A DNA stretch of 64,000 nucleotides from Bacillota bacterium (GTDB lineage Bacteria; Bacillota_A; Clostridia; Lachnospirales; Lachnospiraceae), in the NCBI GenBank assembly GCA_023407175.1, contig JAEYMU010000040.1:62001-126000 (forward strand), in the 5' to 3' direction. Position numbers and translations under genes: made by a program. Under the pieces are notes generated by a model. It was not told where the DNA came from and searched no databases. It worked only from the letters and a program-made list of their open reading frames with translations. Of this stretch, positions 19,163-62,629 are shown in pieces. Position 1 is the first letter of the stretch. Every line of letters begins with the position of its first letter.

Positions 19163-19166
19163 AAGC

Positions 19167-24190: not shown

Positions 24191-24211
24191 TCTTTTTCTT
24201 ATTTATAATGT

Positions 24212-35394: not shown

Positions 35395-35445
35395 AATCAC
35401 TTCTCCTTTTCTTGATTTTGCATTATTATATTATGAAGAGACTTT

Positions 35446-35467
35446 TTCAATAGTCCGGACTATTGAA
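35446..35467. repeat. 22-bp perfect palindrome between permease and binding-protein genes
   Basis: Arms TTCAATAGTCC and GGACTATTGAA with no loop (35446-35467), in the 85-base gap between the permease stop and the binding-protein start. In RNA it gives a stem with a tight loop and no U-run downstream, so it may act in message stability or as an operator. Confidence 0.6.
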
Positions 35468-35479
35468 TGAGCAGCTCAA

Positions 35480-36433: not shown

Positions 36434-37940
36434 CGTGAATTCCTCCTGTCACCGATACCTGTAATATTCTATCCTGATTAAAATTGGCTTTTGAAGATGC
36501 CATTACCTGCCTGCCGTCATACATAACCGAAATGTTGTCGCAGATTCTAAGCAATTCCTCCAATTCCGAAGAAACAACAATGATACTCTTTCCCTGCTCA
36601 GACAACATTCTTATTATTTTATATATTTCTTCCTTGGCCATAACATCGATGCCCTGTGTCGGCTCATCAATCAGCAGAATATCACAATCCTGGGCAAGCC
36701 ATTTGGCAAGAACAACCTTCTGCTGGTTTCCGCCCGATAAATTTTGTGTTACCGTTTTGATAGTCGGTGTTTTTATATTCAGCTTTTTCTTATAATCATG
36801 GCAGGTTTCATCAATGGATCTGTAATGAATAAATCCTCGTCTGATAAACCTTTTTAAGGCAACCATGGACATATTTTCCCAAACTGGAAGGATCAATATC
36901 AGTCCCTGTGTTTTTCTGTTTTCCGGCACCAGGCCGATTTTATGCCTGATTGCATCCTTCGTGCTTTTAAAGCACACTTTTTTACCGTTTATCAGGATTT
37001 CTCCCCCGGTATATGGATCCACACCAAATATTGATCTGAGAATTTCAGTTCTCCCCGAGCCTACCAGGCCATAAAAGCCCAGCACCTCACCCTTATGCAA
37101 TTTAAAATTAATTCCTGATACCTTATGATTGCTCATATTCTTCATTTCCATGACCACCTGGTCGGATATGGGATTTACATCGCTCTCCTCCTTATGAAGC
37201 TGACTCAGTCTGGCGCCTGTCATATATTCCACCAGCATATCTTCATTTAATTCATTCACCAGCTTGCAAACCACAAATTTTCCATCCCTGAGTACTGTAA
37301 TTCTGTCACCGACAATAAACAATTCCTCTAAATGATGAGAGATATATATAATTGTGATGCCCGCCTTCTTTAAATCTTCAATGACCCTCAGCAAAGTTTC
37401 AAATTCGCTTTTGGATAAGGTAGAGGAGGGCTCATCCATTACAATTAATTTTGCATTACTCGCCAACGCCTTCATAATTTCTGTCAGCTGACGCTGGCCG
37501 ATATTCAATGACTTGATCTTTGCCTTGACATTAATCCTTAAATTCAACTGATCCGCAATTTCCTGCGTCTTCTTATAAACCTCGTTCCAATTGACCAGTC
37601 CCGCCTTATTTCTGGGATAATTGTTAATAAAAACATTTTCCCCCACATCCAATTCGTTAATTAATGACAGCTCCTGATAAATAACAGAAATACCCTGCTT
37701 TTTCCGTTCCAGTGTTCCATGGGGCCTTAACTCTTTTCCGTCAAAAATAATTTTGCCTCCGTCCTCAACATAAGCTCCGGACAGTATCTTCATTAATGTT
37801 GATTTACCCGCACCGTTGGCGCCGATCAGACAGTTGACTTCACCGCGTTTCACACAAAAGTCTACCTTGTCTAAGGCTCTTACCCCCGGAAACAGTTTAT
37901 CAATTGCTTTCATCTCCAAAATATTACCCTGTTCCTGCAA
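36420..37940 (-). CDS. Sugar ABC transporter ATP-binding protein, RbsA-like
   Basis: A 506-residue double ATPase. N-terminal domain: Walker A GANGAGKSTLM (about 38-48), signature LNIGQRQLTEI, Walker B LIVMDEPSSTL. C-terminal domain: a P-loop region reading GLVGSGRTEILR (GRT instead of GKT, as is usual for RbsA-type second domains), signature LSGGNQQKV, Walker B ILLIDEPTQGID. It is 30 bases after the kinase gene and overlaps the permease gene. The conserved GXXGXGRT variant indicates a normal asymmetric importer ATPase rather than damage. Confidence 0.94.
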   Translation of the reverse strand: MQEQGNILEMKAIDKLFPGVRALDKVDFCVKRGEVNCLIGANGAGKSTLMKILSGAYVEDGGKIIFDGKELRPHGTLERKKQGISVIYQELSLINELDVGENVFINNYPRNKAGLVNWNEVYKKTQEIADQLNLRINVKAKIKSLNIGQRQLTEIMKALASNAKLIVMDEPSSTLSKSEFETLLRVIEDLKKAGITIIYISHHLEELFIVGDRITVLRDGKFVVCKLVNELNEDMLVEYMTGARLSQLHKEESDVNPISDQVVMEMKNMSNHKVSGINFKLHKGEVLGFYGLVGSGRTEILRSIFGVDPYTGGEILINGKKVCFKSTKDAIRHKIGLVPENRKTQGLILILPVWENMSMVALKRFIRRGFIHYRSIDETCHDYKKKLNIKTPTIKTVTQNLSGGNQQKVVLAKWLAQDCDILLIDEPTQGIDVMAKEEIYKIIRMLSEQGKSIIVVSSELEELLRICDNISVMYDGRQVMASSKANFNQDRILQVSVTGGIHDEKN

Positions 37941-37970
37941 CTTAAATTTCCTCCTTTAACATAAGCTGTA

Positions 37971-39476
37971 TTACTGCTCATGCATCATATCTTTTAAGTT
38001 TTCATATAGCCCCAGATATCTTTTAAAATGGATTTTATATTCTTCGTGATTCTTTAAATCAGGTTCTATAATAGATTTAGGCCGAACCATACCGCACGCC
38101 GCAGCATCAACATCCTTATAGCAGCCCGAGCCTGAAGCAGCTACCACACAGCAGCCCAGAACACCCGCCTGAGAATCCCTGTTTACAATTATTTTTTTAC
38201 CCGTAACATCCGATATGATCTGCATCCATACATTATCCCTGGTAACTCCGCCACAGGCTGTAATCGAATGAATCTGATAACCCTGTGTTTCAAAATTACG
38301 GATAATATTATTTGTTCCGAAGGCTACGGATTCAATTAACGCACGGTAGACATGCTTCCATGTATGCTTAATATTCAGTCCGAATATGACTCCCTTCGCC
38401 ATGGCATCCTTATAAGGTGTCCGATTGCCCTGAAAAAAATCAAGAACCGTAATTCCATCTGCACCAATCGGCATGTCGGCTGCACTTTTCTCCAGCATGG
38501 CATAAGGATTTCCGCCTTCATTCCCGATATGAAAGTTTTCCCTGAACCAATTTACCAGTCCTGAAGCCGAAATCTGTCCGCCCTCCAGCAGCCACAGACC
38601 ATCGACAACCGCACTGTCATAGGGGCCCCAGACTCCTGATATATCCGGCTTATCCTGGGACAGGCACAAATGTACGAAGCTTGTACCCATGATAATCCCC
38701 AGCTTCCCCGGTCGAAGCACATCCAGTCCAAACATAGCCATATGCGCGTCTATCCCTCCCTGTACAACGAGCATACCCTTATTAATTCCAAAGGTCTCGG
38801 CAAGATCGGTACGGATTTTTCCAAGCACAGCTCCGATTTTGTCAACCCGGGTCACGATTTTCTCTTCATAATCTTCGAAGCCTATTTCTTCGAAAAAATC
38901 TCTTTGATAACCGCCCAGGGATCTCACATAATTCCACTTACAGGTAGTATTGCAGATAGAAGAAGACAAAATTCCGCACAGCTTAAAATTAATCCAATCC
39001 AACTGCTCCACCAGCCTATAGCAGCTATCATAAACCTCCCTACGATTATGCTTTATCCAAAGAGCCTTCGGGATCATCCACTCAAAGGAGGTCTCCTGAC
39101 CGCAGTAATTCAAAACCGGGTGCTTCGAATGGTTGATCTTTATCATTTCATTCTTTGATCTGGCATCCATCCACATCATGGCATCCATCAGAGGAGCCCC
39201 CTCTTTATCAATTGCAAAGACCGTGGAAGATGTGGAACAGACGCTGCAGGCTATGATGTGCTGTTTCTCCTCCTCAGATAAATCATTCATGCAATTCTTG
39301 AGAGTATCAAGAATTGCATCCCACCAGTCAAGGGGCTTCTGTTCTGCCCATCCAATTTCGGGATATGTAGTTTTCCAGGACTTTTGATGACTGGTTATCA
39401 TGTTTCCGTTTTCATCACAGATACCGATTCTGACCCCCTGCGTGCCTGTATCGATTCCCATAAAATAAGAATTCAT
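37971..39476 (-). CDS. FGGY-family carbohydrate kinase
   Basis: A 501-residue sugar kinase with both FGGY domains. The N-terminus (FMGIDTGTQGVRIGI) is the phosphate-1 site, WMDARS near 99-104 contributes to sugar binding, GVWGPYDSAVVDGLWLLEGGQISASG near 285-310 is typical of pentulose/ribulose-type kinases, and ITACGGVTRDNVWMQIISDV is the adenosine site. The catalytic Asp is in QGGIDAHMAM (about 240). The substrate is probably a five-carbon ketose or polyol, not firmly deducible. The start overlaps the stop of a small dehydrogenase remnant (ATGA). It is first in line with the ABC importer, driven by the promoter at 39704-39732. Confidence 0.88.
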   Translation of the reverse strand: MNSYFMGIDTGTQGVRIGICDENGNMITSHQKSWKTTYPEIGWAEQKPLDWWDAILDTLKNCMNDLSEEEKQHIIACSVCSTSSTVFAIDKEGAPLMDAMMWMDARSKNEMIKINHSKHPVLNYCGQETSFEWMIPKALWIKHNRREVYDSCYRLVEQLDWINFKLCGILSSSICNTTCKWNYVRSLGGYQRDFFEEIGFEDYEEKIVTRVDKIGAVLGKIRTDLAETFGINKGMLVVQGGIDAHMAMFGLDVLRPGKLGIIMGTSFVHLCLSQDKPDISGVWGPYDSAVVDGLWLLEGGQISASGLVNWFRENFHIGNEGGNPYAMLEKSAADMPIGADGITVLDFFQGNRTPYKDAMAKGVIFGLNIKHTWKHVYRALIESVAFGTNNIIRNFETQGYQIHSITACGGVTRDNVWMQIISDVTGKKIIVNRDSQAGVLGCCVVAASGSGCYKDVDAAACGMVRPKSIIEPDLKNHEEYKIHFKRYLGLYENLKDMMHEQ

Positions 39477-39610
39477 AAAGCATTGCCCTCCACCGGCATT
39501 GTCACTTTGGATAAATCTTCATTAATCATTACCTCATCCGCTTCAACCCCCGGCATAGCAACTTCCTCCACTCTGATATCTCCCAGGGCATAAAGTCTTA
39601 CTGCTCTCAT
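39473..39610 (-). pseudogene. N-terminal stump of a zinc alcohol dehydrogenase
   Basis: A 45-codon frame (ATG at 39610, TGA at 39475-39473) whose first 28 or so residues, MRAVRLYALGDIRVEEVAMP and onward, match the start of medium-chain zinc dehydrogenases. The intact Zn-dehydrogenase at 44685-45749 begins its core with MRAVRLFAPKDIRCVEVDVP. The match breaks off after ADEVMI, and the remaining 16 residues look unrelated. The stop overlaps the kinase start by four bases, so the stump may now serve as a translated leader for the kinase. It is probably the remains of a deleted dehydrogenase gene that once headed this operon. Confidence 0.7.
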
Positions 39611-39660
39611 AATCGGTACCTCTACCTCTCTGTATCAGATTTTCATCAATTGTTATAATG

Positions 39661-39677
39661 TTATGAACATGTTATAA
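39661..39677. promoter_or_regulatory. Operator-like dyad in the kinase operon leader
   Basis: TTATGAACATGTTATAA is symmetric except for one pair, and is flanked by two copies of TGTTATAATG (39651-39660 and 39670-39679). It lies about 20-40 bases downstream of the expected transcription start of the kinase operon, where a repressor would block elongation or initiation. Confidence 0.5.
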
Positions 39678-39703
39678 TGCACAAGGAACATTTGTATATC
39701 TTC

Positions 39704-39732
39704 ATAATACTATATATTTTTTTCGTTGTCAA
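39704..39732 (-). promoter_or_regulatory. Sigma-A promoter of the kinase/ABC importer operon
   Basis: Minus strand TTGACA (39727-39732), spacer of 17 bases, TATTAT (39704-39709). A 10-bp inverted repeat, AATAATTAAT / ATTAATTATT (39731-39765), overlaps the upstream edge of the -35 box. Confidence 0.78.
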
Positions 39733-39888
39733 TAATTAATAAAACAAACTTTTAAATTAATTATTTTTTGTATACAATTAAATGGGTAAATTCGGGGGTT
39801 TTCTGTTTTTTTAACAAGCAAAAAAAACAAAGATTGCCAGTAAATCAAGCATTTCAAGGCCATATCGTCAATACGGGGCAAAAATTCA

Positions 39889-39917
39889 TTGACATTTTCA
39901 TATTATTATGATATTTT
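39889..39917 (+). promoter_or_regulatory. Sigma-A promoter of the Fe-alcohol dehydrogenase gene
   Basis: TTGACA (39889-39894), 17-base spacer, TATTTT (39912-39917). Transcription would start near 39924. It is divergent from the kinase promoter, about 157 bases away. Confidence 0.7.
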
Positions 39918-39926
39918 AAATTTGTG

Positions 39927-39957
39927 ATTACATATGATACATTTATAATTACATATG
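39927..39957 (+). promoter_or_regulatory. Operator-like direct repeat downstream of the Fe-ADH promoter
   Basis: ATTACATATG occurs at 39927-39936 and 39948-39957, exactly 21 bases apart (two helical turns). The second copy continues into GTTCATA, which is shared with the minus-strand reading of the kinase-side dyad (ACATGTTCATAA). Confidence 0.5.
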
Positions 39958-39995
39958 TTCATATAATTAAGGATTTCGAAAGGAGTTTTCACTTT

Positions 39996-41159
39996 ATGAT
40001 CAGAAGCTACCGCGAATTATTTCAGCCCGCTCATACGTTGATCGGCATGGGCTGTATCAATGAAATTCCCCGCTATATTGATGCGTTTAACGCCAAGAAA
40101 GCGTTCATCATTTCAGATGCAGGCCTGGTTAAGATAGGAACTGTAAAGAGAATAACCGATGTGCTGGACCGTGCCGGAAAAGCCTATGAGATTTTTGACA
40201 AGGTTCTTCCAAATCCCACCACCGCCATAGTAAAGGAAGCAACCGAGGCTCTTCAAAAGGAACGCTGTGACTATATTATCGGTATCGGAGGTGGCTCCCC
40301 GCTGGATGTTGCAAAGGCCGTCGGCATTCTGGCGGTTAACGGCGGAGAGATCAGGACCTATGAAGGTATTAATAAATCGGCTAAACCGGCTCTCCCCCTG
40401 ATTGCCGTCAATACTACCGCCGGTACAGGCTCCGAGGTTACCCGGGATTATGTGATCACCGACGAGGACAAAAAAATAAAAATGCTTATGGTGGATTCCA
40501 ATTGCCTTGCAGCCCTGGCAATTGACGACCCGCAGCTTATGCTTGAAATGCCTCCTCATCTGACTGCGGCAACCGGAATGGATGCGATGACTCACGCGAT
40601 CGAGGCATATGTATGCAAATCTAATTTCCCCTATTCTAACGGACTTGCACTCGAGGCCATTGCGCTGGCAGCGAAATCCTTGAAGAAAGCTGTCCAGGAA
40701 GGCAATAATGCAGAAGCCAGAACGGATATGTGCTGGGCTGAATATATGGCCGGGCTGGCATTTTCCAATTCCGGACTGGGCCTGGTTCATGCAATGGCCC
40801 ACCAGCTTGGCGGCTTTTACAACATGCCTCACGGTGTTGCCAATGCAATTCTTCTTCCCTTCGTAATGGAATACAATTCATTGGTATGCAAAGAGCGATA
40901 TAGCGCCGTCGCAAAGGCACTCGGAATTAATACCGGCAAAATGACTGCGGATCAAGCTGCCAACGCGGCCATTCAGTTCATCCGGGATCTATCCTGTGAG
41001 CTCAATATCCCCTCTCTTCACTCCTTAGGCTTTAATCCGGCCGATGTGATTACCCTGTCGTTAAATGCTTTGAACGATACCTGCTTATCCGATAATCCAA
41101 GAAGCCCCAGTCTGGTTGATGTTCAGAACATCTATATGAATGCCTATGAAAGCAAATAA
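39996..41159 (+). CDS. Iron-containing alcohol dehydrogenase
   Basis: A 387-residue group III alcohol dehydrogenase. The cofactor loop is IGGGSPLDVAKAVG (about 94-107) and TAGTGSEVT follows near 137-145. The metal ligands lie in DDPQLMLEMPPHLTAATGMDAMTHAIEAY (Asp about 193, His about 197) and in GLVHAMAHQLGGFYNMPHG (two His). Members reduce acetaldehyde, propanal or butanal with NADH, or oxidise 1,3-propanediol. In this cluster the likely job is reduction of acetaldehyde made by DeoC, regenerating NAD. No encapsulation helix is visible. The start at 39996 has an AAAGGAG site; 24 upstream in-frame codons are not family-like. Confidence 0.92.
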   Translation: MIRSYRELFQPAHTLIGMGCINEIPRYIDAFNAKKAFIISDAGLVKIGTVKRITDVLDRAGKAYEIFDKVLPNPTTAIVKEATEALQKERCDYIIGIGGGSPLDVAKAVGILAVNGGEIRTYEGINKSAKPALPLIAVNTTAGTGSEVTRDYVITDEDKKIKMLMVDSNCLAALAIDDPQLMLEMPPHLTAATGMDAMTHAIEAYVCKSNFPYSNGLALEAIALAAKSLKKAVQEGNNAEARTDMCWAEYMAGLAFSNSGLGLVHAMAHQLGGFYNMPHGVANAILLPFVMEYNSLVCKERYSAVAKALGINTGKMTADQAANAAIQFIRDLSCELNIPSLHSLGFNPADVITLSLNALNDTCLSDNPRSPSLVDVQNIYMNAYESK

Positions 41160-41167
41160 GTGATAAC

Positions 41168-41208
41168 AAAAAAGTGACTATTGCATTCCTGTGCAATAGT
41201 CACTTTTT
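41168..41208. terminator. Bidirectional terminator
   Basis: Twelve-bp perfect stem GTGACTATTGCA / TGCAATAGTCAC with six A before and five T after, between the convergent Fe-ADH and SorC-type regulator genes. Confidence 0.9.
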
Positions 41209-41229
41209 ATGTCAGCCTCATAGAATCTT

Positions 41230-42198
41230 CTATTCATCGTCAAGGCTATCATCACCAAACCTGTTCAGTACCCATCCAGCCGTTTCTTCATTTGTAATCA
41301 GTACATTAATACATCCGCCGTTCAAAGCCCCGCAAATACAATTCACCTTGCTTTGGCCCATGGCAACACCGATCCTGTATTCCTTTTCCCTGATATTCGC
41401 CAACGGTACGGCGATTGTTCTGTCATCCAGCTGCCGGTCACATAAATTACCGTTAAAATCAATGACATGGGAGCAAATATCACCTACCGCACCTTTTTCA
41501 GATAATTGTAACATTTGTTCCTTACTCAGATATCCCGCACTGACCAAAGCGCTCTGATTTCCAAAGGAGCCCATGGTAAACATAGCTATATTTGATTTCA
41601 TGCCATAATCTATAATTCTATCAATATTATGATCCTGAAGCATAAATTTCTTCAAGGTACTGTCATCAACCACAGCCGGTAAAGGCAGTATATAGGGTGT
41701 TCCGGATAAAGCCGATGAAAAATTCTTTGCTATCTCTGTTGCATAAATATTACTTTTCAGATTACTGATACCTCCGCAAAGCTGTACGGTCACAATGTTA
41801 TCCAAATCGTTTCTTTTAAAGGCCGCGCGTGAACAATGATAAATCGTTTCACCCCAGGACAGGCCGATAATATCCCCGCTCTTCAAAATAGAATCCAAAT
41901 ATCTGGCGGCTTCCTTTCCTAACTTGGCGATCGGATTTTCATCTGTCCCCTTCGGCACTATGATTACTTTTTTCAAATTAAATTTATTTTTAAATTTTCT
42001 TTCCAGATTGGATTCAATTTTCGTAGGATCATGTACCTCAACCTTAACAATTCCCGACTCCTTCGCCTCATTCAATAGCTTTGATATGTATGGGCGCGAA
42101 AGATTAAGAGTTTTAGCCACCAGATCCTGGCTAAAATTCTGTTCATAATACAGCTTTGCCACTTTAACCAAGAGCTCTATTTTTTTGTAGTCATGCAT
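41230..42198 (-). CDS. SorC/DeoR-family (SorC type) transcriptional regulator
   Basis: A 322-residue regulator. The N-terminal helix-turn-helix (about 8-50: VAKLYYEQNFSQDLVAKTLNLSRPYISKLLNEAKE) is the SorC-type DNA-binding domain. The rest is the sugar-phosphate-binding domain related to glucosamine-6-phosphate isomerase (SGDIIGLSWGETIYH, VTVQLCGGI). Bacillus DeoR, a member of this family, senses deoxyribose-5-phosphate, which fits a cluster containing DeoC. It probably represses the divergent kinase and Fe-ADH promoters. The start at MHDYKK follows TGGAGG. It is the only regulator gene in the BMC cluster. Confidence 0.88.
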   Translation of the reverse strand: MHDYKKIELLVKVAKLYYEQNFSQDLVAKTLNLSRPYISKLLNEAKESGIVKVEVHDPTKIESNLERKFKNKFNLKKVIIVPKGTDENPIAKLGKEAARYLDSILKSGDIIGLSWGETIYHCSRAAFKRNDLDNIVTVQLCGGISNLKSNIYATEIAKNFSSALSGTPYILPLPAVVDDSTLKKFMLQDHNIDRIIDYGMKSNIAMFTMGSFGNQSALVSAGYLSKEQMLQLSEKGAVGDICSHVIDFNGNLCDRQLDDRTIAVPLANIREKEYRIGVAMGQSKVNCICGALNGGCINVLITNEETAGWVLNRFGDDSLDDE

Positions 42199-42288
42199 AT
42201 TGTTATCCTCCATTATTAAGAATGCATTACGGTATTCTATGCTGGCTATTTTTTAAACCGATACATTGAGCTTATGCTGCCAATAAAT

Positions 42289-42317
42289 AATATAGCACAT
42301 ATTTCAGGAATTATAAA
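42289..42317 (-). promoter_or_regulatory. Candidate promoter of the SorC-type regulator gene
   Basis: Minus strand TTTATA (42312-42317), 17 bases, TATATT (42289-42294), about 90 bases before the regulator start. Confidence 0.4.
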
Positions 42318-42410
42318 GTTGTTATTAAACATTTTCCTTTGATTAAAAATTATCATAAAAAGCAATCATTCCATCCTTTGCTTTGCAAAAACGCAGAGAT
42401 GAACTGCTGC

Positions 42411-44492
42411 CTACACAATAAATCTCTCGATTGCGCCGACCAGCTGCTGCGAATCCTCCTTTAGACAGCCCGCAGATTGATTCAGGGATTCGACCGACCG
42501 CAGCTGATTACCGGAGATCTGGCTCACGTTATTGCTCAGGGCGGCAATCTCCTCCAATACAGCTGAAATATTCTCGATTGCGCCCAGGGTATTTGCACGG
42601 GTCCCTTCCATATTCTCAACATTCTCAATGATCTGCCTGAGGTAATCCGTCAGGCGGTCGACACTTTCATTAATACCCCGATATGATTCCGCTGTGTTTT
42701 TTACCGCGTTATCCTGTAATACGATAACATTTTCGGCGCCTTTTGCGGTTTTTACCACATTCCGGGTGGTGTCCTGTATATTGTCAATAATATTCTTTAT
42801 ATCGTCAACAGAGCGCTTGGTCTGTTCTGCAAGGCTTCTTATTTCACCGGCAACGACCGCAAAGCCCATGCCTACTTCACCGGCTCTAGCCGCTTCTATG
42901 GAAGCATTCAGGGACAGCAGGTTTGTCTGATTGGATATGTCATTGATTACATTTGTAATTGAACTGATTGACATTGATTTTTCCGCCAGCTCCTCGATTC
43001 CCTTTACAATTTCCGTTGTTATACTTATCGTTTGTTTGGTCTGGCTGGTAAGCTCCTGTGTCGCAGCTGTTCCCGCCAGGATGCTCTTCTTGGTTCCCTC
43101 TGCAATTTTTCCGATTTCACCGGCGCTGTAGCTCATCTTCTCTATTTTTCCGGACAGGCTGTCCATTTGATTCAGGCACTCTTCCGCCTCCTTCGCCTGA
43201 GTATTCACTCCCTGCTCAATTTCATTCATAGCGGAAGAAATATCACTGGTGGCTTTCAAAAACAGCTCGGAGGTTGACGATACATTGCCGGATGCTCTGG
43301 ATACCTCTTCGCTTGATTCCTTTACCTGGCCTATAAGCCGCTTCATATTGGAAAATGTATTGTTTATTTCATTAATCAATAACCTGAATTCATCCTTGCG
43401 CCTGGTTGTAAAATCCACTGTCAGATCTCCGGCTGCTGCCTGCTTCAGCTTCCCGATAATATCCTTGATGGTTCTGTCTATCCCATATGATATGAACAAA
43501 CCGATCATCACGGCAATAATGCATGCAATGATTACAATTAAAACAGTAACGTGCTTAATCTTTTCAACCTGTTTAAGTATTGTGCTCTGTGGTATGACCG
43601 CACAAACCATGGCTCCCGTATCACCGATCCTGGAATACATAAATAAGCTGCTTTTCCCCTGGAATTCAACATTAAAGGCATCACTCTCCTTATCCGAGGA
43701 TACTGCCTTACTATAAAAATCCTTATCACAAAAGATAGCCTCCGAAGCCTGTCCGGTACCACTGTCTGTTATCTCTTTGCCGTCCGCCGTAACAAATGCA
43801 AGACTCCCTGTTTGATCAAAATTCATGCTTTGAAGGATGTCTGTAACGGATTTACGATCCATATCAATAACAATAAGCGAATCTTCCCCAGTGTAGCTGC
43901 GAACCAGCCGCAATGCATACTTTTCCGGTCCTACTCCCAGCCGGCTGTCCAGATAATCATCCTGTCCCAGCCAGAGTATCTTCGCCGTACCCTTGATTAC
44001 TGCGCCGTTCGTTGTCTCAAAATAGCCGCCGCATATTTTACTTATTATCGATGTCAGTGTCGTTGCAGACTGCTCCGAATCCGATAATACGGAAATATGA
44101 GAGATAAAATCATCCGCCGCTTCTTTTTCCAGAATGTCATTTTTAATATTCTTAAAATTCTTTGTTTTAAGCGATATATCATAATCATAGGTGCCTAAAA
44201 AGTATTTATTCATAATGTTATCATTCAGATATTGATCTGATGCGGCTTCCACCGAATCCACACCCATGCTTATATACTTCCCTGTCATCTCAATCGCCTG
44301 CCGGGTAGATTTCTCATAGCTGCTTCGTATGCCCTCAGATGCCGTATTAAAGGAAACTGCCCCCAGAAATATAATAAAGGCAATCGGTACAAAAAAACAG
44401 ACAATCAGCTTCGCGCGTATTGTTAAAAAGTTGTGGCTGACCTGATGCTTTACTTTATGATCAGCCTTACGCTTTATCCTACGGTTCTTCAT
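42411..44492 (-). CDS. Methyl-accepting chemotaxis protein
   Basis: A 693-residue chemoreceptor: a strongly basic N-terminus, membrane helix 1 (about 26-46), an extracellular sensor of about 260 residues of double-Cache-like layout, membrane helix 2 (about 312-335), a HAMP linker, and a long signalling coiled coil. The kinase-contact hairpin is intact ([19 protein letters not shown], then [19 protein letters not shown]). No C-terminal CheR-tether pentapeptide is present. Its place inside the sugar/microcompartment cluster suggests it senses the same nutrient or its binding protein. The start at MKNRRI follows GGGAGG. Confidence 0.93.
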
Positions 44493-44560
44493 ATGATTTC
44501 CTCCCTTGTGATTCAATTATTCCTTTTCCGGCGCCGCAGGAGATAAAATACAGCAGTTGA

Positions 44561-44671
44561 AAAAGGGGACTGTCCCACTATTATTTGTTCATCAGCAGCA
44601 AACAGGCAAATTGATTATTACTTTAAATCAATATACTGTTTCTGAAAATAATAGTGCAACAGTCCCGTTTT
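44561..44671. mobile_element. 111-bp MITE-like inverted-repeat element, possibly acting as terminator
   Basis: The arms at 44561-44585 and 44647-44671 are inverted copies: AAAAGGGGACTGT, two or three differing bases, CACTATTATTT; about 22 of 25 positions match. The interior holds a smaller hairpin, TTGATT/AATCAA. On the minus strand the right end is followed by a T-run (CCCCTTTTTC), so it would also terminate the dehydrogenase operon. No target duplication is obvious. No transposase is nearby, so a non-mobile structured terminator remains possible. Confidence 0.5.
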
Positions 44672-44684
44672 ATTTTCATTCAGA

Positions 44685-45749
44685 TTACAGTTCCGGCTTA
44701 AATAAAACCTTTGTAAACACCTCTGTCCTGTTATACATCATTTCAAATACCTGTTTACATTCCTCGAGGCGGACACGGTGCGTTATGAGCGGATTTACGT
44801 TGATCTGCCCGCTATGCATAAATTCGAGAGCACTCTGCCATTCATTAACCGGCAGTGGATTAATAGAAGAGTTCCAGCTGCCGTAGATTTTTAATTCCCC
44901 CCGTAAAATACTGGCAATGGCTTTATTGGGAAAGGTAACATCATCGTATGTAATGCCTCCGTATACAACCTCTCCGTTTTTCTTACAAGCTTCAACCGCC
45001 TGTACATGGGTGATTTTATTCCCGGCAAATTCAATCGCGATGTCGACACCTTCACCCCCGGTTAACTCTTTGATTGCCTTCACGGCATCCCCTTCCTTAC
45101 CGTTTACGCCATGGGTGGCACCAAGACGCTTCGCCAGCCTTAATTTATCCTCCGCTACATCGACAGCAATCACTGTGGTACAGCCCAGGGCCTTCAGCCA
45201 CTGTGCCGTTATATAGCCAATTGCCCCCAGCCCAAACACCGCAGCTGATTTTCCGGCTATAATTTCCACTTTTCTGACAGCATGAAGGCCCACGGATACC
45301 GGATCTGTAAAAGAGCCCATTTCATAATCCACGTTGGCGGGAAGCTTTAAGCAGTTTCCCGACTCAACAACAATATATTCCGCCATCGCCCCGTCTCTTC
45401 TTGAACCATAGTAATCATAGGTATCACATAAATGCGACTGACCAACCTTGCAATACTGGCATTCCCCGCATGGAAGCAGGGGCATTACCGCCACCCTGTC
45501 CCCGATGGCAAGTCCTCCCTTGACCTTATCGCCGCAATTAATAACTTCACCGGCAAATTCATGACCGATTGTGGTTGGGAAATGATAGGTTCCCTTTACC
45601 ATAACACGGGGTATGTCAGAGCCGCAGACCCCGCAGCTTTTCACCTTAATTAAAACCTGGGTATCCTTCTCGATTGACGGGACATCAACCTCAACACATC
45701 TGATATCCTTTGGTGCAAATAAACGTACCGCTCTCATCTTCTGAGCCAT
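44685..45749 (-). CDS. Zinc-dependent medium-chain polyol/alcohol dehydrogenase
   Basis: A 354-residue dehydrogenase of the sorbitol / galactitol-1-phosphate dehydrogenase group. Catalytic-zinc residues are in CGVCGSD (about 37-43) and GHEFAGEV (about 62-69); the structural zinc site CGECQYCKVGQSHLC (about 94-108) is complete. The NAD fold is AAVFGLGAIGYITAQWLKALG (about 165-185), with the Asp after VIAVD indicating NAD rather than NADP. It should oxidise a polyol or polyol phosphate to a ketose, feeding the pathway and making NADH. It is the last gene of the microcompartment operon, 35 bases after deoC, with an AAGGAGG site. Confidence 0.9.
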   Translation of the reverse strand: MAQKMRAVRLFAPKDIRCVEVDVPSIEKDTQVLIKVKSCGVCGSDIPRVMVKGTYHFPTTIGHEFAGEVINCGDKVKGGLAIGDRVAVMPLLPCGECQYCKVGQSHLCDTYDYYGSRRDGAMAEYIVVESGNCLKLPANVDYEMGSFTDPVSVGLHAVRKVEIIAGKSAAVFGLGAIGYITAQWLKALGCTTVIAVDVAEDKLRLAKRLGATHGVNGKEGDAVKAIKELTGGEGVDIAIEFAGNKITHVQAVEACKKNGEVVYGGITYDDVTFPNKAIASILRGELKIYGSWNSSINPLPVNEWQSALEFMHSGQINVNPLITHRVRLEECKQVFEMMYNRTEVFTKVLFKPEL

Positions 45750-45784
45750 AGTAATTCCTCCTTAAATTATCTGCCTGCCACCTG

Positions 45785-46555
45785 TTAATATGCACTTGTC
45801 GAGGCAGTTCCATTTATAATGGAAATACCGGAACTCGTTCCGAGACGGTTGGCTCCTGCCTCAATCATTTCTTTTGCGGTTTGCGCAGACTTTACTCCGC
45901 CGGATGCCTTAACGCCCATTTCCGATCCGACTGTTTTTCGCATCAGCCGAATATCCTCCACTGTAGCACCCCCGGTGGAAAAGCCTGTTGATGTCTTTAC
46001 AAAATCGGCTCCCACCTCTTTACATATCTTGCACGCATGAATTTTTTCATCATCTGTCAACAGACAGGTTTCAATAATAACCTTGACGACAGCTCTTCCA
46101 TTCACACCGATTACAACATTGGCGATATCCTTTTTTACAAAATCCCAGTTTCCTGATTTTATCATTCCGACATTAACTACCATATCCACTTCTTTTGCGC
46201 CGTTTTCAATCGCTTCGTTGGCCTCAAAAACCTTTGCCTTTGTGGTCGTGGCTCCCAGAGGGAAGCCAATAACGGTACACACCTTTACATTGGAGCCTCT
46301 TAGCTCCTCGAAGCACTGCGGAACATAGGACGGGTTTACACAAACGGAGCAAAAATTGTTGTCCTTTGCTTCCTGGCAAAGCTTCTTAATTCCGTCAACG
46401 GTTGCATCCTGCTTCAGCAGGGTATGATCAATCATTCCTGCAATATTGCTGTTCCCTGAGAGCCCCCCGGTTTTCGCCGCAAATCCGCCCTCTCTTGCTA
46501 ATCTTTGATAAATTTCGTCTACAATTCTTTCAATCAATTTATCTGCTTCTGTCAT
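45785..46555 (-). CDS. deoC: Deoxyribose-phosphate aldolase with encapsulation-like N-terminus
   Basis: A 256-residue class I aldolase that cleaves 2-deoxyribose-5-phosphate to acetaldehyde and glyceraldehyde-3-phosphate. The Schiff-base lysine is in DFVKTSTGF and the second active-site lysine in [19 protein letters not shown] starts the barrel at about residue 41. The first 35 residues are extra compared with ordinary DeoC. They form an amphipathic helix ([20 protein letters not shown], 2-21) followed by a Gly/Ser/Asn linker, the hallmark of bacterial microcompartment cargo. It lies 39 bases after a pentamer gene. The start at MTEAD follows TGGAGG. Confidence 0.95.
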
Positions 46556-46594
46556 AATTACCTCCATTTTGTGCTTCCAAAATCCAACTATACT

Positions 46595-46894
46595 TTAAAT
46601 ATGAAACGATGAGTGAACCTCTGCTTCGGAAATAGCAGGCAACTGATCCAATATGCCCAAAATCGCGGCATCCGTATAAACATCATTTCCAATAATCATC
46701 TTTGCAGAACCGCCCTCCGCCGTATACAGCACATAATCACCGATTCCGGCACAGCTATTATCCATGGCAAGCAGAACCGGACCGCGTTCCGCGCCTGATT
46801 CATCCACCCCCCGAATCATCATAAGCTTTTTCCCATAGTGGGAGGGAATCTTAATTATTGAAATTAAATTGCCTACTACCTTTCCTATTGTCAA
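46595..46894 (-). CDS. BMC pentamer shell protein (EutN/CcmL family), TTG start
   Basis: A 99-residue vertex protein of the microcompartment. TIGKVVGNLISIIKIPSHYG is the family N-terminus, DSCAG-like NSCAGIGDYVLYT is the core, and VYTDAAILGILDQL is the C-terminal strand-helix. EutN/CcmL pentamers cap the twelve vertices of the shell. The start is TTG (46894), eight bases after AAAGGA; a longer frame runs 26 codons upstream into the preceding shell gene. The last 14 residues (ISEAEVHSSFHI) extend beyond the usual end. It is the third of three different pentamer genes in this operon. Confidence 0.9.
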   Translation of the reverse strand: MTIGKVVGNLISIIKIPSHYGKKLMMIRGVDESGAERGPVLLAMDNSCAGIGDYVLYTAEGGSAKMIIGNDVYTDAAILGILDQLPAISEAEVHSSFHI

Positions 46895-46895
46895 T

Positions 46896-47318
46896 TTATT
46901 TTTCCTTTCCCGGAAGAATATTTTCAACATCACTGTGAGGACGGGGAATAACATGAACCGATACCAATTCACCTACGCGCTTAGCCGCTGCCGCGCCAGC
47001 CTCTGTAGCCGCCTTTACAGCTCCGACATCTCCCCTTACCATGACGGTAACCAGACCGCTTCCTATCATTTCCTTGCCTATCATTTTGACATTAGCAGCC
47101 TTTACCATAGCATCTGCCGCTTCGATGGCTCCTACTAATCCTCTTGTTTCTATCATTCCTAATGCATTCTGTTCCATTATTTTCATTTCCTTTCTGATTG
47201 GTTTTTGATCGACTGATATTTTATTTTCAACTCTGGCTGAAACCGGATTATTCCCTGGCTGCAAGACATCGGCGGCTTTATTTTCCACTGTCTTTAAAGT
47301 CTTCTTCATTGTATCCAT
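46896..47318 (-). CDS. BMC hexamer shell protein, possibly N-terminally extended
   Basis: The BMC domain (from about residue 48: [27 protein letters not shown], ending [16 protein letters not shown]) is a PduA/EutM-type hexamer that tiles the shell facets. It is about 75 percent identical to the next gene upstream, from which it arose by duplication. An in-frame 47-codon extension ([20 protein letters not shown] and onward) starts at an ATG that shares a base with the upstream stop (TAATG), with a GAAGGA site 10-11 bases before. A second start at MEQNAL (47177) has AAAGGA ten bases before it. Both starts may be used. Confidence 0.85.
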
Positions 47319-47587
47319 TACGGAAGAATTCCTTCGACATCCTCATGCGGACGCGGAATTACATGAATGGACACAACCTCCCCGATTCTCTTTGCCGCTG
47401 CCGCTCCGGCCTCCGTAGCTGATTTTACAGCTCCGACGTCTCCTCTTACCAATACAGTAACCAATCCGCTGCCAGCCTTTTCTTTTCCGATCAATTGTAC
47501 ATTTGCTGATTTCACCATTGCGTCAGCTGCCTCAATTGCCGCCACAAGGCCTCTTGTTTCCACCATTCCTAGTGCATTTTTTTCCAT
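47318..47587 (-). CDS. BMC hexamer shell protein (PduA/EutM-like)
   Basis: An 89-residue single-domain shell protein: [20 protein letters not shown], the pore loop around [29 protein letters not shown], and the C-terminus [18 protein letters not shown]. It assembles into flat hexamers with a central pore through which substrates pass. The length is minimal for the family. The start at 47587 is favoured by AAAGGAG nine to ten bases upstream. It lies between a pentamer gene and the extended hexamer gene, which begins on its stop codon. Confidence 0.95.
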
Positions 47588-47615
47588 TCCCGATACTCCT
47601 TTCACACTTAAATTT

Positions 47616-47879
47616 TTATTTTTGAAGCCTCATTTCATCTACAATGCCTACGATACTTGCATCCACAGGTACCATTCCAGCATTCAGAGCATTTGCTCCT
47701 TCCTTGCTGGAAGCAATGTAAACTTCATCACCATAACCTGCCACATGGGATGCGTCTGCCGCCACCAGTATTTTATCCCCCATGTCCTTCGATAATCTGA
47801 CAATAAGCAGCTTCACACCTGTGAGGGTTATATCCTTCGCCGTTGAAGTAATTGTACCAATAACCCTGCCGACAAACAT
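47616..47879 (-). CDS. BMC pentamer shell protein (EutN/CcmL family)
   Basis: An 87-residue vertex protein: [71 protein letters not shown]. All core positions of EutN/CcmL are kept. It has a strong GGAGGTG site. In the operon it is second of the three pentamer genes. The three differ clearly from each other and may give vertices of different binding properties. Confidence 0.93.
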
Positions 47880-47960
47880 CTTTTCACCTCCAAGTCCCGG
47901 ACCGGTATTAATATTTATATCCCATGAAAGTACATGGGAGCGACAAGATAACCGGAACAA

Positions 47961-48275
47961 TCACTCCGGTGTATCTTTGCCTTCGTATTTATGAAAGACG
48001 GTTTTTCCATCTATTTCTATGGAATCAATAATTCCGATAATCGCCGCGTCCACCGGCCTCTTTTCTGAGATTGCAGAAAGTCTGGCCGAGCTTCCGCTCA
48101 CCACCAGCACCGTCTCCATCTCACCCGCCCCCACCGTGTCTACGGCAACATAAATCTTCGACCCCGGCTGCATGGTATTCATATCAATTGTTCTTACGAC
48201 AAGAAGGGACAGTCCCTTCAGCCCGTCTGTTTTATTCGTGCTTACGACATTACCAATTACTTTGCATACCTCCAT
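47961..48275 (-). CDS. BMC pentamer shell protein (EutN/CcmL family)
   Basis: A 104-residue vertex protein: MEVCKVIGNVVSTNKTDGLKG, LLVVRTIDMNTMQPGSKIYVAVDTVGAGEMETVLVVSGSSAR, VDAAIIGIIDSIEID. The C-terminal tail (KTVFHKYEGKDTPE) is somewhat longer than in the other two pentamers. It is the first shell gene of the operon, preceded by the gene of unknown function. It ends 81 bases before the next pentamer start. Confidence 0.93.
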   Translation of the reverse strand: MEVCKVIGNVVSTNKTDGLKGLSLLVVRTIDMNTMQPGSKIYVAVDTVGAGEMETVLVVSGSSARLSAISEKRPVDAAIIGIIDSIEIDGKTVFHKYEGKDTPE

Positions 48276-48345
48276 AGTGATCCCCCGTTTCTGCGTATGG
48301 CCATGATCTATTCAACGCCGTCCCGGCAATATCGGAAAACAGTCT

Positions 48346-49062
48346 TTACTCCGGACAAAGCCGTATAATCCTTATATTATTCTCACAGATTATATCATTG
48401 GCCAGCGGGGTAATGATGCATCTGGCACTCACCGTAATTTCGCCACTCCCTTCTCTCAGGGCATTTTTCACATCCTCTTCCAATAATACGGAAGGAGCGG
48501 CAATCTCTTTGCTCTTTGCTTCCGGCTGATTGAGATAACAGATTCCGCACCCCAGTGCTTTTGCCTCAGCAAGCAGCTTATGATAGGTTTTCTGCACCAG
48601 ATTCCTGTTTTCTATTCTCCTCGGCAGAACAATTCGTACCTGTTTTCCTAAAAGCAGTGCCTTAATCAGCAATTTTACCGCCGGGTGGCAGCTGCCTCCA
48701 AGCTTGACCAACTGCTCCAAAAGCTCGATGTCCGGTGCATATATATCCATCTGCCGCACCTCGTCAAGACACCCATTCCATTTCCTGCATGTGGCCGGAT
48801 TTTCGATATCATATACAAAATCCACCTGCATTTGCGCCCGCAATGCCCTCATATATTCCGCGAACTCCAAATCCCTGCAGATATTTTCCAGTGTCATTAC
48901 AATTGCTTTCGGCTCCCCGGGATTTTCTTTTTTATCAGCTATGGCAGCTTTTTTATCAGCATCCGGTTCCTTACCCGCAATCAGTTCTCTGACGCTGCTG
49001 TCATTTAGTTGATTTATGTATTCTCTTACTAAATCCTCAATCATTTTTTTATGATCCGCCAC
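48346..49062 (-). CDS. Microcompartment-associated protein of unknown function
   Basis: A 238-residue product if translated from GTG at 49062, which has GGAGG seven bases upstream; ATG codons at 49095 and 49092 lie inside tpiA and have no ribosome site. From the GTG start the first residues are an amphipathic helix (HKKMIEDLVREYINQL, 4-19) followed by a polar linker, as in encapsulated enzymes. Domains after about residue 60 resemble a flavodoxin-like or Rossmann fold (LGKQVRIVLPRR, ALGCGICYLNQ). The C-terminus ITPLANDIICENNIRIIRL resembles the end segment of EutT/PduL-type BMC proteins, which may be coincidental. No catalytic motif is recognised. Confidence 0.75.
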   Translation of the reverse strand: MADHKKMIEDLVREYINQLNDSSVRELIAGKEPDADKKAAIADKKENPGEPKAIVMTLENICRDLEFAEYMRALRAQMQVDFVYDIENPATCRKWNGCLDEVRQMDIYAPDIELLEQLVKLGGSCHPAVKLLIKALLLGKQVRIVLPRRIENRNLVQKTYHKLLAEAKALGCGICYLNQPEAKSKEIAAPSVLLEEDVKNALREGSGEITVSARCIITPLANDIICENNIRIIRLCPE

Positions 49063-49084
49063 ACCCAGTCCTCCATTTGACACA

Positions 49085-49879
49085 TCACTCATCAAGCAGG
49101 CCGATAATCTTTTTAAACGCCTCCGGCTTTAAGCTTGCTCCGCCGATTAAAAAACCGTCAACATTTTCTATTTTACTGATTTCTCCCACATTTTTTTCAT
49201 TAACACTTCCTCCGTAGAGCAGGGCAGCCTGTCTTCCGAACATATTCTTGACTACCCCCTTGATGTAATCATGAGTTTCCCTGATTTCCTCAAGACTGGC
49301 GCTTACTCCTGTGCCGATTGCCCATACGGGTTCATAGGCTACGATTATGCCAGAAAGCATATCCTGTGTTATTCCGTGCAGATCCTCTGTGATCTGCTCC
49401 TTTATCACCACTTTCCAGGTTCCGTTCCTGCGCTGCTCCAGATTTTCACCGATGCAGACCAGGATGTTCAACCCATATTTGACACCAGCATGTACTTTTT
49501 TGTTGATTTCCTTATCCGTCTCATTATAATATGCTCTTCTTTCCGAATGTCCCGTCAACGCATAATCACACCCCAGCTCCTGAAGCATGGGTATTGAAAT
49601 TTCACCGGTATAGGCACCACTTTCCTTGTAATGAAAGCTTTGCGGACCATAATGAATGTTTTCCGCTCTAAATTCCCCTGATAATGCGGCCAGAGAAGTA
49701 TAAGGCGGGAAGATGACCAGCGTATTTGCCGTTTTAATGCTTTCCATTTCAGTTAAGAATTTTTTCCCTTCCGAAATAGTCATATTCATCTTCCAATTAC
49801 CGGCAATTATCAGCTTCTTCCTCAGACTACCGTACAAGGCATCTTTTACCGCCATAAAAATGTCATTTTTATTGATCAT
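49085..49879 (-). CDS. tpiA: Triosephosphate isomerase with encapsulation-like N-terminus
   Basis: A 264-residue isomerase that interconverts glyceraldehyde-3-phosphate and DHAP. All catalytic elements are present: AGNWKMN (Lys), ALTGHSERR (His), VAYEPVWAIGTG (Glu) and LYGGSVNEKN (phosphate site). Compared with ordinary enzymes, which start near RKKLIIAGNW, it carries an extra 19 residues (MINKNDIFMAVKDALYGSL) forming an amphipathic helix. Its place at the head of the microcompartment operon and this helix suggest that it is packaged with DeoC and is not the glycolytic enzyme. The start follows AAAGGCGG. It is driven by the promoter at 49945-49973. Confidence 0.95.
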   Translation of the reverse strand: MINKNDIFMAVKDALYGSLRKKLIIAGNWKMNMTISEGKKFLTEMESIKTANTLVIFPPYTSLAALSGEFRAENIHYGPQSFHYKESGAYTGEISIPMLQELGCDYALTGHSERRAYYNETDKEINKKVHAGVKYGLNILVCIGENLEQRRNGTWKVVIKEQITEDLHGITQDMLSGIIVAYEPVWAIGTGVSASLEEIRETHDYIKGVVKNMFGRQAALLYGGSVNEKNVGEISKIENVDGFLIGGASLKPEAFKKIIGLLDE

Positions 49880-49944
49880 TTCAATTACCGCCTTTAATTA
49901 GTTACTTTTGATTATTGCTTTGTAAATTATGTTACTTTATTTGT

Positions 49945-49973
49945 AGAATAGCATACCCTTTTTTAAATGTCAA
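49945..49973 (-). promoter_or_regulatory. Sigma-A promoter of the microcompartment operon
   Basis: Minus strand TTGACA (49968-49973), spacer of 17 bases, TATTCT (49945-49950). The leader of about 60 bases contains GTAACATAATTTAC, a small dyad (GTAA/TTAC, about 49921-49934) that could be a regulator site. The gap 49880-50223 otherwise holds only the divergent promoter and A+T-rich sequence. Confidence 0.75.
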
Positions 49974-50148
49974 CCAATTTTCATAAAAACGCAAATTAAT
50001 TGATAATTACATCCAATACTCCACGGAATTTTATCTGTGAGAGCAGCTTCAGCTCATGAAAGCAAATTAATCGGCGCCCTGATTATCCAGTAATCAATAT
50101 CGTTTGATAGTTATTCTGCATCAATTGTCACAAAAAACTGCTATTTAA

Positions 50149-50177
50149 TAGACATCTATTTTCTCCTATGCTATAAT
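50149..50177 (+). promoter_or_regulatory. Sigma-A promoter of the glycerol-1-phosphate dehydrogenase gene
   Basis: TAGACA (50149-50154), 17-base spacer, perfect TATAAT (50172-50177). The ATG at 50185 lies at the expected transcription start and so cannot have a ribosome site; the ATG at 50224 is used instead. Confidence 0.7.
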
Positions 50178-50223
50178 TGCTGTCATGATAAAACAAATCC
50201 ATCTCCGAAAGAAGGGTGTTATT

Positions 50224-51582
50224 ATGCTGCTATCCAGCCATTTATCTATTACAGAAATGATCCAAAGAGATTTTCCCTGCGAATGCGGACGAACCCACTT
50301 AGCTTCAATTAACTATGCAGCAATCGGTGAAGGGGTTCTGAAGGAGCTCCCGGGACTGCTGTTAAAAAATAGTCTTCAAAAATCCTTTATTCTATGTGAT
50401 TCCTCCACCTATGCGGCTGCAGGTAAGTTCATTGTTAACGAAATGAAGAACAGAGGACTTCCTTTTGTTAGCTATATAATCAATGAAGCTGAACCGGTAC
50501 CGGACGAAAAAACACTCGGTGAGCTTTTAATCCATATGGATCATGACTGCGACCATATCATCGCAGTTGGAAGCGGAACCATCAATGACCTCAGCCGTTT
50601 CTTAAGCTTCCGGCTTGGTCTGCCCTATATTATAGCCGCCACCGCTCCTTCGATGGACGGTTTCGCCTCCAATGTTGCGCCGCTGATTGTTAAGCACATG
50701 AAAACCACCTACGAGGCACATGCTCCCTTTGCTATTTTTGGCGATACCTCTGTTTTGGCCAAGGCCCCCCTTCTGATGATATTTGCGGGTATCGGAGATA
50801 TCCTGGGAAAATACACCTGTCTTTGTGATTGGAGGGTATCCCATATTCTAACAGGCGAATATCATTGTAAGATAATTGAAGCTATTGTAAAGCAGTCGAT
50901 CGAAACGGTTGTAAGCCAGTTGGAACACGTGAAAAGCGGTGATCCAGGAGCAGTTGAAAACATTATGGAGGCTCTGGTTTTATCCGGTATTGCCATGAGC
51001 TTTTCCGGTAATTCAAGACCCGCATCAGGAAGCGAACACCATTTGTCCCATTACTGGGAAATGGTATTTTTATTTAACGGCAAAAAGCCGGTTCTTCACG
51101 GAACCAAGGTCGGGATTGGCACAATTGCAGTTATCCGGGCCTATGAATTACTGCTGTCCCGGAACATAGATTTTAAACGTGCAAGAGAGCTTGCTAAAAT
51201 GTACTCCTTTGATGACTGGAAGCAAAAGATGAGGGCAGCCTACGGCCCTGCCTCTGATTCCGTCATCGCGCTTGAGGAGAAGCTTGGAAAGAATAGAACT
51301 TCGGACCGCCTTATGCGGATTGATTTAATAGAAAAGCACTGGGACAGGCTGAAGGAAGTCATTGGTCAGCTTCCTTTAGCCGATACGGTATATGATTATT
51401 TATCCGAGCTTGGAGCTCCCGCCACACCGATGGCTGTCGGGATTGATAAGCAAACCTTTCTTGTAAGCTTTGCCGCAGCCAAGGAATTACGCAACCGCTT
51501 TGGATTGCTCCAGATACTGTATGATTTAAATCTATCGGAAGAAACAGCAGAGCTTGTATGGGACTATTTTATGAATAAGTAA
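50224..51582 (+). CDS. araM: sn-Glycerol-1-phosphate dehydrogenase (AraM/EgsA family)
   Basis: A 452-residue dehydrogenase that reduces DHAP to sn-glycerol-1-phosphate with NAD(P)H. CECGRTH near the N-terminus, GSGTINDLSRFLS (cofactor loop), APSMDGFASNVAPLI, GIGDILGKY (metal Asp) and SGSEHHLSHYWEM (metal His pair) are all conserved AraM/EgsA motifs. HGTKVGIGT holds the third metal His. In this cluster it would use the DHAP from the operon's triosephosphate isomerase and re-oxidise NADH. No extra N-terminal helix is evident. It is divergent from the microcompartment operon and has a weak AAGGGTG site. A general cell-envelope role is the alternative. Confidence 0.9.
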   Translation: MLLSSHLSITEMIQRDFPCECGRTHLASINYAAIGEGVLKELPGLLLKNSLQKSFILCDSSTYAAAGKFIVNEMKNRGLPFVSYIINEAEPVPDEKTLGELLIHMDHDCDHIIAVGSGTINDLSRFLSFRLGLPYIIAATAPSMDGFASNVAPLIVKHMKTTYEAHAPFAIFGDTSVLAKAPLLMIFAGIGDILGKYTCLCDWRVSHILTGEYHCKIIEAIVKQSIETVVSQLEHVKSGDPGAVENIMEALVLSGIAMSFSGNSRPASGSEHHLSHYWEMVFLFNGKKPVLHGTKVGIGTIAVIRAYELLLSRNIDFKRARELAKMYSFDDWKQKMRAAYGPASDSVIALEEKLGKNRTSDRLMRIDLIEKHWDRLKEVIGQLPLADTVYDYLSELGAPATPMAVGIDKQTFLVSFAAAKELRNRFGLLQILYDLNLSEETAELVWDYFMNK

Positions 51583-54723: not shown

Positions 54724-54771
54724 GCTTTCACCTCCTATATATCCAGATCAACCGGCCGATGCTCTATCATT

Positions 54772-56872: not shown

Positions 56873-56887
56873 ACCTTCTCACCCTCC

Positions 56888-59301: not shown

Positions 59302-59309
59302 AGATCTCC

Positions 59310-60200: not shown

Positions 60201-60223
60201 TTGCTTGCCTCCTGTCAGCTAAA

Positions 60224-62624: not shown

Positions 62625-62629
62625 AGGCA

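Follow-up and report, generated by a model that had tools for sequence, protein, structure and literature searches.

A microcompartment operon in a Lachnospiraceae genome may enclose an aldehyde-producing pathway that disposes of its aldehyde by reduction. The operon occupies positions 44685 to 49879 (minus strand) of a 64,000-nucleotide stretch (GenBank assembly GCA_023407175.1, contig JAEYMU010000040.1, positions 62,001 to 126,000), hereafter the window, and encodes shell proteins together with deoxyribose-phosphate aldolase (DeoC), triosephosphate isomerase (TIM) and a zinc dehydrogenase (ZnADH). The existence of this operon is confirmed, and chance is excluded as the source of the gene set because much of it recurs in related genomes. 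In the reading that we prefer, to which we assign a probability of roughly 45%, the operon specifies a compartment like subtype SPU4 of the sugar phosphate utilization (SPU) class, with two hexamers, three pentamers and DeoC and TIM as cargo. The module of aldehyde dehydrogenase (AldDH), RnfC-like protein, trimeric shell protein (BMC-T) and phosphotransacylase was not found in the 64 kb, and acetaldehyde would be reduced instead.

Shell, DeoC, TIM and ZnADH genes were assigned by Pfam and NCBIfam profile searches, which confirmed three EutN/CcmL pentamers (PF03319) and two BMC-H hexamers (PF00936). This agrees with an earlier reading of the letters (the initial annotation), which had placed two hexamer and three pentamer genes in one operon with deoC, tpiA and a zinc dehydrogenase. 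In order of transcription, the operon begins with tpiA (49085..49879), whose product (TIGR00419, 150 bits against a cut-off of 131) keeps the catalytic motifs NWKMN, GHSERR and YEPVWAIGTG and has an N-terminal extension of about 19 residues; its ATG is preceded by the ribosome-binding site AAAGGCGG. Between tpiA and the first pentamer gene lies a gene for an accessory protein (48346..49062), absent from the listing of the initial annotation, with a weak C-terminal match to the PduM type (TIGR02536). This protein had three matches among 5.8 billion proteins (E ≤ 1e-3; 99%, 48% and 44% identical), and its predicted structure was set aside (mean pLDDT of 52). The pentamers P1 (47961..48275) and P2 (47616..47879) follow, then the hexamers H1 (47318..47587) and H2 (46896..47318; extended by about 47 N-terminal residues if translation starts at the first ATG) and the pentamer P3 (46595..46894; probable TTG start). 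Last come deoC (45785..46555), whose product matches TIGR00126 (296 bits; cut-off, 117), retains the catalytic lysine and aspartate motifs and carries an amphipathic N-terminal extension, and the ZnADH gene (44685..45749), with galactitol-1-phosphate 5-dehydrogenase as nearest solved relative of its product. Clear ribosome-binding sites precede the TIM, P2, H1, DeoC and ZnADH genes, and the starts of H2 and P3 are less certain.

Using queries from related loci, tblastn found no AldDH, PduL, Pta, RnfC-like (PduS) or RpiB gene in the 64-kb window (all E ≥ 0.4), as the initial annotation had stated for AldDH and PduL. For the RpiB-type isomerase (PF02502), the query from one related genome, G163, gave a best E of 0.82 (genomes and the stretches taken from them are cited by G and L numbers). 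The RpiB matches in G001 and G003 also fall outside the stretches L001 and L013. A trimeric shell gene, for which the initial annotation had proposed a search, was not found in the 64 kb either: BMC-T queries matched the two BMC-H genes, with nothing else below an E of 0.12. AldDH, the enzyme that usually consumes the toxic aldehyde within such a shell, is thus not encoded with the compartment, and the aldehyde must be removed by other means or by the product of a gene outside the window.

The gene set was compared with published compartment classes. The name SPU was given to loci that combine DeoC, AldDH and RpiB, and one of these also has TIM (PMC4207490, 2014). Seven SPU subtypes share PF01791 and PF02502, with AldDH described (PMC8217296, 2021), SPU4 has been reported in gut Clostridia (PMC8156839, 2021), and an unassigned Firmicute locus resembling SPU has been shown (PMC9052549, 2022). 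Thus, the DeoC-type class is already catalogued, as the initial annotation had suspected, and the proposition that no compartment of this kind is known was rejected. The shell make-up of the window equals that of SPU4 and DeoC is shared (PMC4207490, PMC8217296, PMC11346464, PMC8156839), whereas AldDH, phosphotransacylase and RpiB are missing from the 64 kb searched, and ZnADH and an iron-containing alcohol dehydrogenase (Fe-ADH) are added. Of the domains that mark SPU loci, the DeoC-type aldolase (PF01791) is in the locus, and RpiB (PF02502) and AldDH (PF00171) were not found in the 64-kb window. Because RpiB and AldDH are absent from the locus, we regard the window as an SPU4-like variant and not as a full SPU member. 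The general metabolosome set is incomplete as well, with DeoC and alcohol dehydrogenase candidates present and AldDH and phosphotransacylase not found in the 64 kb. Shell genes without AldDH also define the BUF loci (PMC8217296, PMC8156839); on the evidence of its 64 kb the window may resemble them in this respect, but its DeoC is a signature enzyme that produces an aldehyde. The literature searched, which did not cover the catalogue supplements describing BUF2 and BUF3, held no report of a DeoC/TIM compartment that lacks AldDH.

Most relatives of the locus carry an AldDH. Eleven other DeoC loci have hexamer or pentamer genes in the stretch examined, and AldDH is present in nine of them (L001, L013, L020, L023, L025, L032, L066, L074 and L078); the remaining two are L003, cut by a contig end, and L064 of G187, without AldDH. 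For L020, L074 and L078, AldDH was recognized by its similarity to proteins of L013 and L001, and for the others by PF00171 or by both. Excluded from this count were L067 of G163 (a partial pentamer domain, with no PF00936 in the genome) and L047 (TIM and an AldDH-like frame beside DeoC, with no shell match in the sequence examined). ZnADH is 66 to 88% identical in five related DeoC loci, four of which bear AldDH: L066 of G392 (84%), L074 of G599 (70%), L001 (69%) and L078 of G757 (66%). In L066, one run holds FGGY kinase, ZnADH, TIM, accessory protein, AldDH (PRK15398, 645 bits; cut-off, 403), RnfC-like protein, BMC-T (two PF00936 stretches), two hexamers, DeoC, three pentamers and Pta. Besides ZnADH, its hexamers (83 and 78%), FGGY kinase (59%), DeoC (59%) and TIM (48%) are identical to those of the window to the extent given. 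TIM has the N-terminal extension in both loci, whereas AldDH, RnfC-like protein, BMC-T and Pta occur only in that of G392. L074 and L001 contain TIM, a PduM-like protein, AldDH, RnfC-like protein, BMC-T, two hexamers, DeoC, ZnADH and three pentamers, and L078 has the same set but no TIM or pentamers in the 13 kb examined. Since these intact relatives pair the same ZnADH and DeoC, mostly with TIM, with AldDH, RnfC-like protein and BMC-T, the window looks like a derivative of a known type, and the suggestion of the initial annotation that its chemistry is a different one was too strong.

Gene order allows one reading of how the module could have been lost. In L013 (FGGY kinase 45% identical), L020 and L025, the accessory protein and P1 are followed by AldDH, RnfC-like protein and BMC-T, then by the other shell genes, whereas in the window P2 directly follows P1 at a distance of 81 bp. 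A contiguous block of AldDH, RnfC-like and BMC-T genes may therefore be missing between P1 and P2. However, a single-block loss after P1 is modeled on the more distant L013 type, because the block is not beside P1 in L066, L074 and L001, and the history of module loss may be less simple than one deletion. Two short hairpins lie in the P1-P2 gap and at its edge (47880-47970), where L013, L020 and L025 carry the AldDH block.

G187 offers a reduced cousin of the locus (L064/L065). One run contains TIM with extension (51%), DeoC (70%), ZnADH (88%), one hexamer and a SorC-family regulator (65%), and about 9 kb from it an FGGY kinase (69%) and an Fe-ADH (66-68%) are divergent, as in the window. Neither locus has AldDH; that of G187 has one hexamer and no pentamer, and the genome has compartment loci elsewhere. 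A compartment locus of the class-II-aldolase kind lies on the same contig, about 30 kb from the DeoC locus, and encodes AldDH, PduL, RnfC-like protein, BMC-T and a pentamer; another two shell loci with AldDH are of the ethanolamine type (labeled by eye). A lone RnfC-like/BMC-T pair was also seen in this genome (L070:6542-8457), with no other shell match in the surrounding 14 kb. G187 indicates that a DeoC/TIM module without its own AldDH can exist in a genome with AldDHs in other compartments.

The proposed reduction draws on the Fe-ADH gene (39996..41159, plus strand), whose product resembles lactaldehyde reductase (443 bits, below the cut-off of 523) and is a candidate acetaldehyde reductase. 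A close relative was found in one of eight genomes searched, G187 (68%), and the best match in the other seven was 43% identical. Thus, the two loci without AldDH share this Fe-ADH, and G392, G599, G757, G001 and G003, which have AldDH in the locus, show none of comparable identity, which fits acetaldehyde reduction replacing oxidation. The disposal of acetaldehyde as ethanol, put forward in the initial annotation, gains partial support from the close Fe-ADH that G187 alone among the eight genomes has, placed divergently to an FGGY kinase as in the window.

The flanking FGGY kinase, sugar importer, Fe-ADH and AraM-type dehydrogenase listed in the initial annotation were all recovered by family searches. 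The kinase gene (37971..39476, minus strand) is pentulokinase-like, its closest solved structures being xylulose and ribulose kinases. Together with a ribose-type ABC importer, composed of an ATPase (36420..37940), a permease (35480..36433) and a sugar-binding protein (34348..35400), it forms one minus-strand run (34348-39476) divergent to the Fe-ADH gene. A SorC-family regulator gene (41230..42198, minus strand) lies between the Fe-ADH gene and the operon; its product scores highest against the family of Bacillus DeoR (328 bits; equivalog cut-off, 420, not reached). The inducer of DeoR in Bacillus subtilis is deoxyribose-5-phosphate, and the DeoR-like regulator therefore points to this compound or an analogue as an intermediate. 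A deoxypentitol or pentitol as starting compound would fit the importer, kinase and dehydrogenase, although this is a guess. Next to the operon, the gene at 42411..44516 (minus strand) was labeled by eye, from its translation, as a methyl-accepting chemotaxis protein.

Under the preferred reading, a sugar or polyol would enter through the ribose-type importer and be phosphorylated by the FGGY kinase, and ZnADH would oxidize the phosphorylated compound to deoxyribose-5-phosphate, or to a closely similar compound, as the substrate of DeoC. The aldolase, enclosed in the shell, would split this substrate into acetaldehyde and glyceraldehyde-3-phosphate. TIM would pull the latter to dihydroxyacetone phosphate (DHAP), which would leave for glycolysis, and Fe-ADH would convert acetaldehyde to ethanol with the NADH from ZnADH, so that no acetyl-coenzyme A would be made in the organelle. 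A compartment independent of coenzyme A (CoA), in which only the aldolase and TIM are enclosed, the release of the aldehyde for ethanol formation is controlled and redox is closed between the sugar-phosphate dehydrogenase and Fe-ADH without acyl-CoA chemistry, is conceivable but rather unlikely.

Encapsulation was assessed from the hydrophobic moment of N-terminal extensions compared with shuffles of the same residues. In the window, DeoC (p = 0.003) and the accessory protein (p = 0.0005), which has a strongly amphipathic N-terminal helix resembling an encapsulation peptide, are likely cargo. TIM scored 0.25. The corresponding values in G187 were 0.017 for DeoC and 0.021 for TIM, and in G392 0.0115 and 0.42. 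An extension of similar length is present in the TIMs of G187 and G392 and, in that form, in none of eight other TIMs compared; because the three share this extra N-terminus, TIM is possible cargo. No significant amphipathic N-terminus was detected by the comparison with shuffles in ZnADH (0.70), FGGY kinase (0.41), AraM (0.33) or Fe-ADH (0.08). As a yardstick, AldDH was positive in L013 (0.0115) and G392 (0.04) and not in L001 (0.42), so the test misses some cargo.

The DeoC-ZnADH pair also occurs in G854 (L079; ZnADH, 61%) and G1004 (L080; 57%), without a shell match in the stretch examined, and thus appears to form a separate pathway, which some lineages have placed within a shell. Both cassettes share with the window DeoC beside the same kind of ZnADH and a SorC regulator. 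They differ from it in a DeoC without extension, an arabinose-isomerase-like protein, a short-chain dehydrogenase/reductase, a second ZnADH and a different FGGY kinase. These shell-free cassettes (L079:9425-16955 and L080:7989-15524) possibly represent an undescribed sugar pathway.

Several observations weigh against an AldDH-free reductive compartment. The AldDH search covered the 64-kb window, which leaves room for such a gene elsewhere in the genome, and RpiB, common to all catalogued SPU subtypes, was not found there. The loci with the closest ZnADHs (L066, L074 and L001) carry the AldDH block away from P1, and L078 has no pentamer in its 13 kb. The TIM extension is not significantly amphipathic, and neither Fe-ADH nor ZnADH has a significant encapsulation-type N-terminus, so that acetaldehyde would probably leave the shell before reduction. 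The link to Fe-ADH comes from two genomes. Above all, G187 carries AldDHs in other compartment loci, one of them about 30 kb from its DeoC locus, which is the main reason why the AldDH-free reading is not firm.

This last point leads to a serious rival that ranks close behind. Here the locus would be one half of a metabolosome that is split: a second compartment locus would provide AldDH, phosphotransacylase, RnfC-like protein and BMC-T in trans, and the shell that DeoC and TIM enter would be shared or mixed. Such an arrangement is tenable and somewhat less probable than the reductive compartment. The DeoC locus of G187 has no pentamer, yet the same genome has the AldDH compartment locus 30 kb away, an RnfC-like/BMC-T satellite and two more AldDH shell loci, and satellite loci are described in the 2021 catalogue (PMC8217296). 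However, the window, unlike G187, has its own hexamer and pentamer set, and the AldDH at the class-II-aldolase locus of G187 is just 43-50% identical to the SPU AldDHs compared. G187 can also be taken as a further reduced state, with a single hexamer, of a locus on its way out, in which the module was deleted, the shell and aldolase operon was left over and acetaldehyde is handled by cytosolic AdhE. Reading frames as long as AdhE (881-899 amino acids) that include an AldDH domain are found in G187, G392 and G163. Decay of this kind is nevertheless improbable: the reading frames of the shell proteins, DeoC, TIM and ZnADH are uninterrupted, the catalytic motifs of DeoC and TIM are kept, several starts have clear ribosome-binding sites, ZnADH is 88% identical to that of G187, and two hexamers and three pentamers are retained.

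The pathway of the initial annotation, in which acetaldehyde becomes ethanol and DHAP becomes glycerol-1-phosphate through AraM, is very improbable. The AraM-type gene (50185..51582, plus strand; glycerol-1-phosphate dehydrogenase family) adjoins tpiA, but it is divergent to the operon with its own promoter-like site, its family score (202 bits) is below the cut-off of 413, and a tblastn comparison with 21 related stretches gave no match below an E of 1e-3, a result that refers to these stretches and not to whole genomes. AraM was therefore rejected as a pathway member, being not conserved in related stretches, and probably lies outside the system. In L051, a stretch without shell matches, a DeoC has a weak AraM match (24%) nearby. 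Taken together, the interpretation offered by the initial annotation is partly supported.

In the window, promoter-like sites numbered 45 against 30.0 in shuffles, and terminator-like sites 13 against 11.5, so that single sites carry little weight. A shared operator was sought across the promoter regions, and no long palindrome passed the filter. Between the gap that separates FGGY kinase from Fe-ADH and the gap that separates TIM from AraM, the best common stretches either overlap with -35-like hexamers or are rich in A and T.

The relatives discussed above come from several surveys. For DeoC, 7999 relatives were scored and the best 120 listed; among the matches listed, the closest relatives including the N-terminal extension are 84-85% identical. 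One contig scan gave 53 DeoC loci, seven with hexamer or pentamer matches nearby (L001, L003, L013, L020, L023, L025 and L032). DeoC at E ≤ 1e-85 occurred in 9 of 397 genomes of the family around G008 (Catonella morbi). The surroundings were read for three of these nine (G187, G392 and G163), and the other six showed no shell match in the 3.0-3.7 kb stretches scanned. ZnADH was found in 2 of 392 genomes of the order, 4 of 391 of the class, 1 of 395 relatives, 1 of 38 in the family of G599 and the single genome in the genus of G187; G187 itself is among the matches in the order, class, 395-relative and genus surveys. These searches added G599, G757, G854 and G1004. Because the 395-relative survey did not list G392 (ZnADH, 84%), which was outside that draw or missed at first look, absences in the ZnADH surveys are soft.

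Other features were seen in the relatives. In G163, part of a pentamer domain, covering 36 positions of PF03319, is fused in frame to a Pta-like protein (L067:8891-9994, minus strand; by eye), and this fusion adjoins a DeoC with N-terminal extension and two RpiB-like genes (by eye); the genome has no PF00936 match at E ≤ 1e-5. G392 has a second compartment locus (L072:7954-15463), which may be of the BUF kind: two hexamers and a pentamer lie next to amidohydrolase-like and 2-oxoacid:ferredoxin-oxidoreductase-like genes (by eye), and no AldDH was listed for this locus. Elsewhere in the window, the sole Rfam match at gathering threshold is a T-box leader (23845-24197, minus strand, 130 bits) upstream of a 2-isopropylmalate-synthase-like gene (22259-23785; by eye). 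An operon resembling a Tad-type pilus or secretion apparatus (14458-21991, minus strand; by eye) lies near genes for large cysteine-rich repeat proteins (7517-11942; by eye). The region 51765-64000 (minus strand) encodes a YgeY-type hydrolase, a sigma-54 regulator, diaminopropionate ammonia-lyase, two amidohydrolases, energy-coupling-type ABC proteins and an Asp/Glu-racemase-like protein (partly by eye), and may be an island for the breakdown of compounds that resemble purines or hydantoins.

The usual definition of a catabolic organelle rests on an acylating AldDH enclosed in the shell, where CoA is recycled. The AldDH-less locus of the window, beside close AldDH-bearing relatives, forms a matched pair for asking what purpose a shell serves without CoA chemistry. 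Furthermore, its natural shell is simple, with two kinds of hexamer and three of pentamer, and could serve engineering together with what may be a core of two enzymes.

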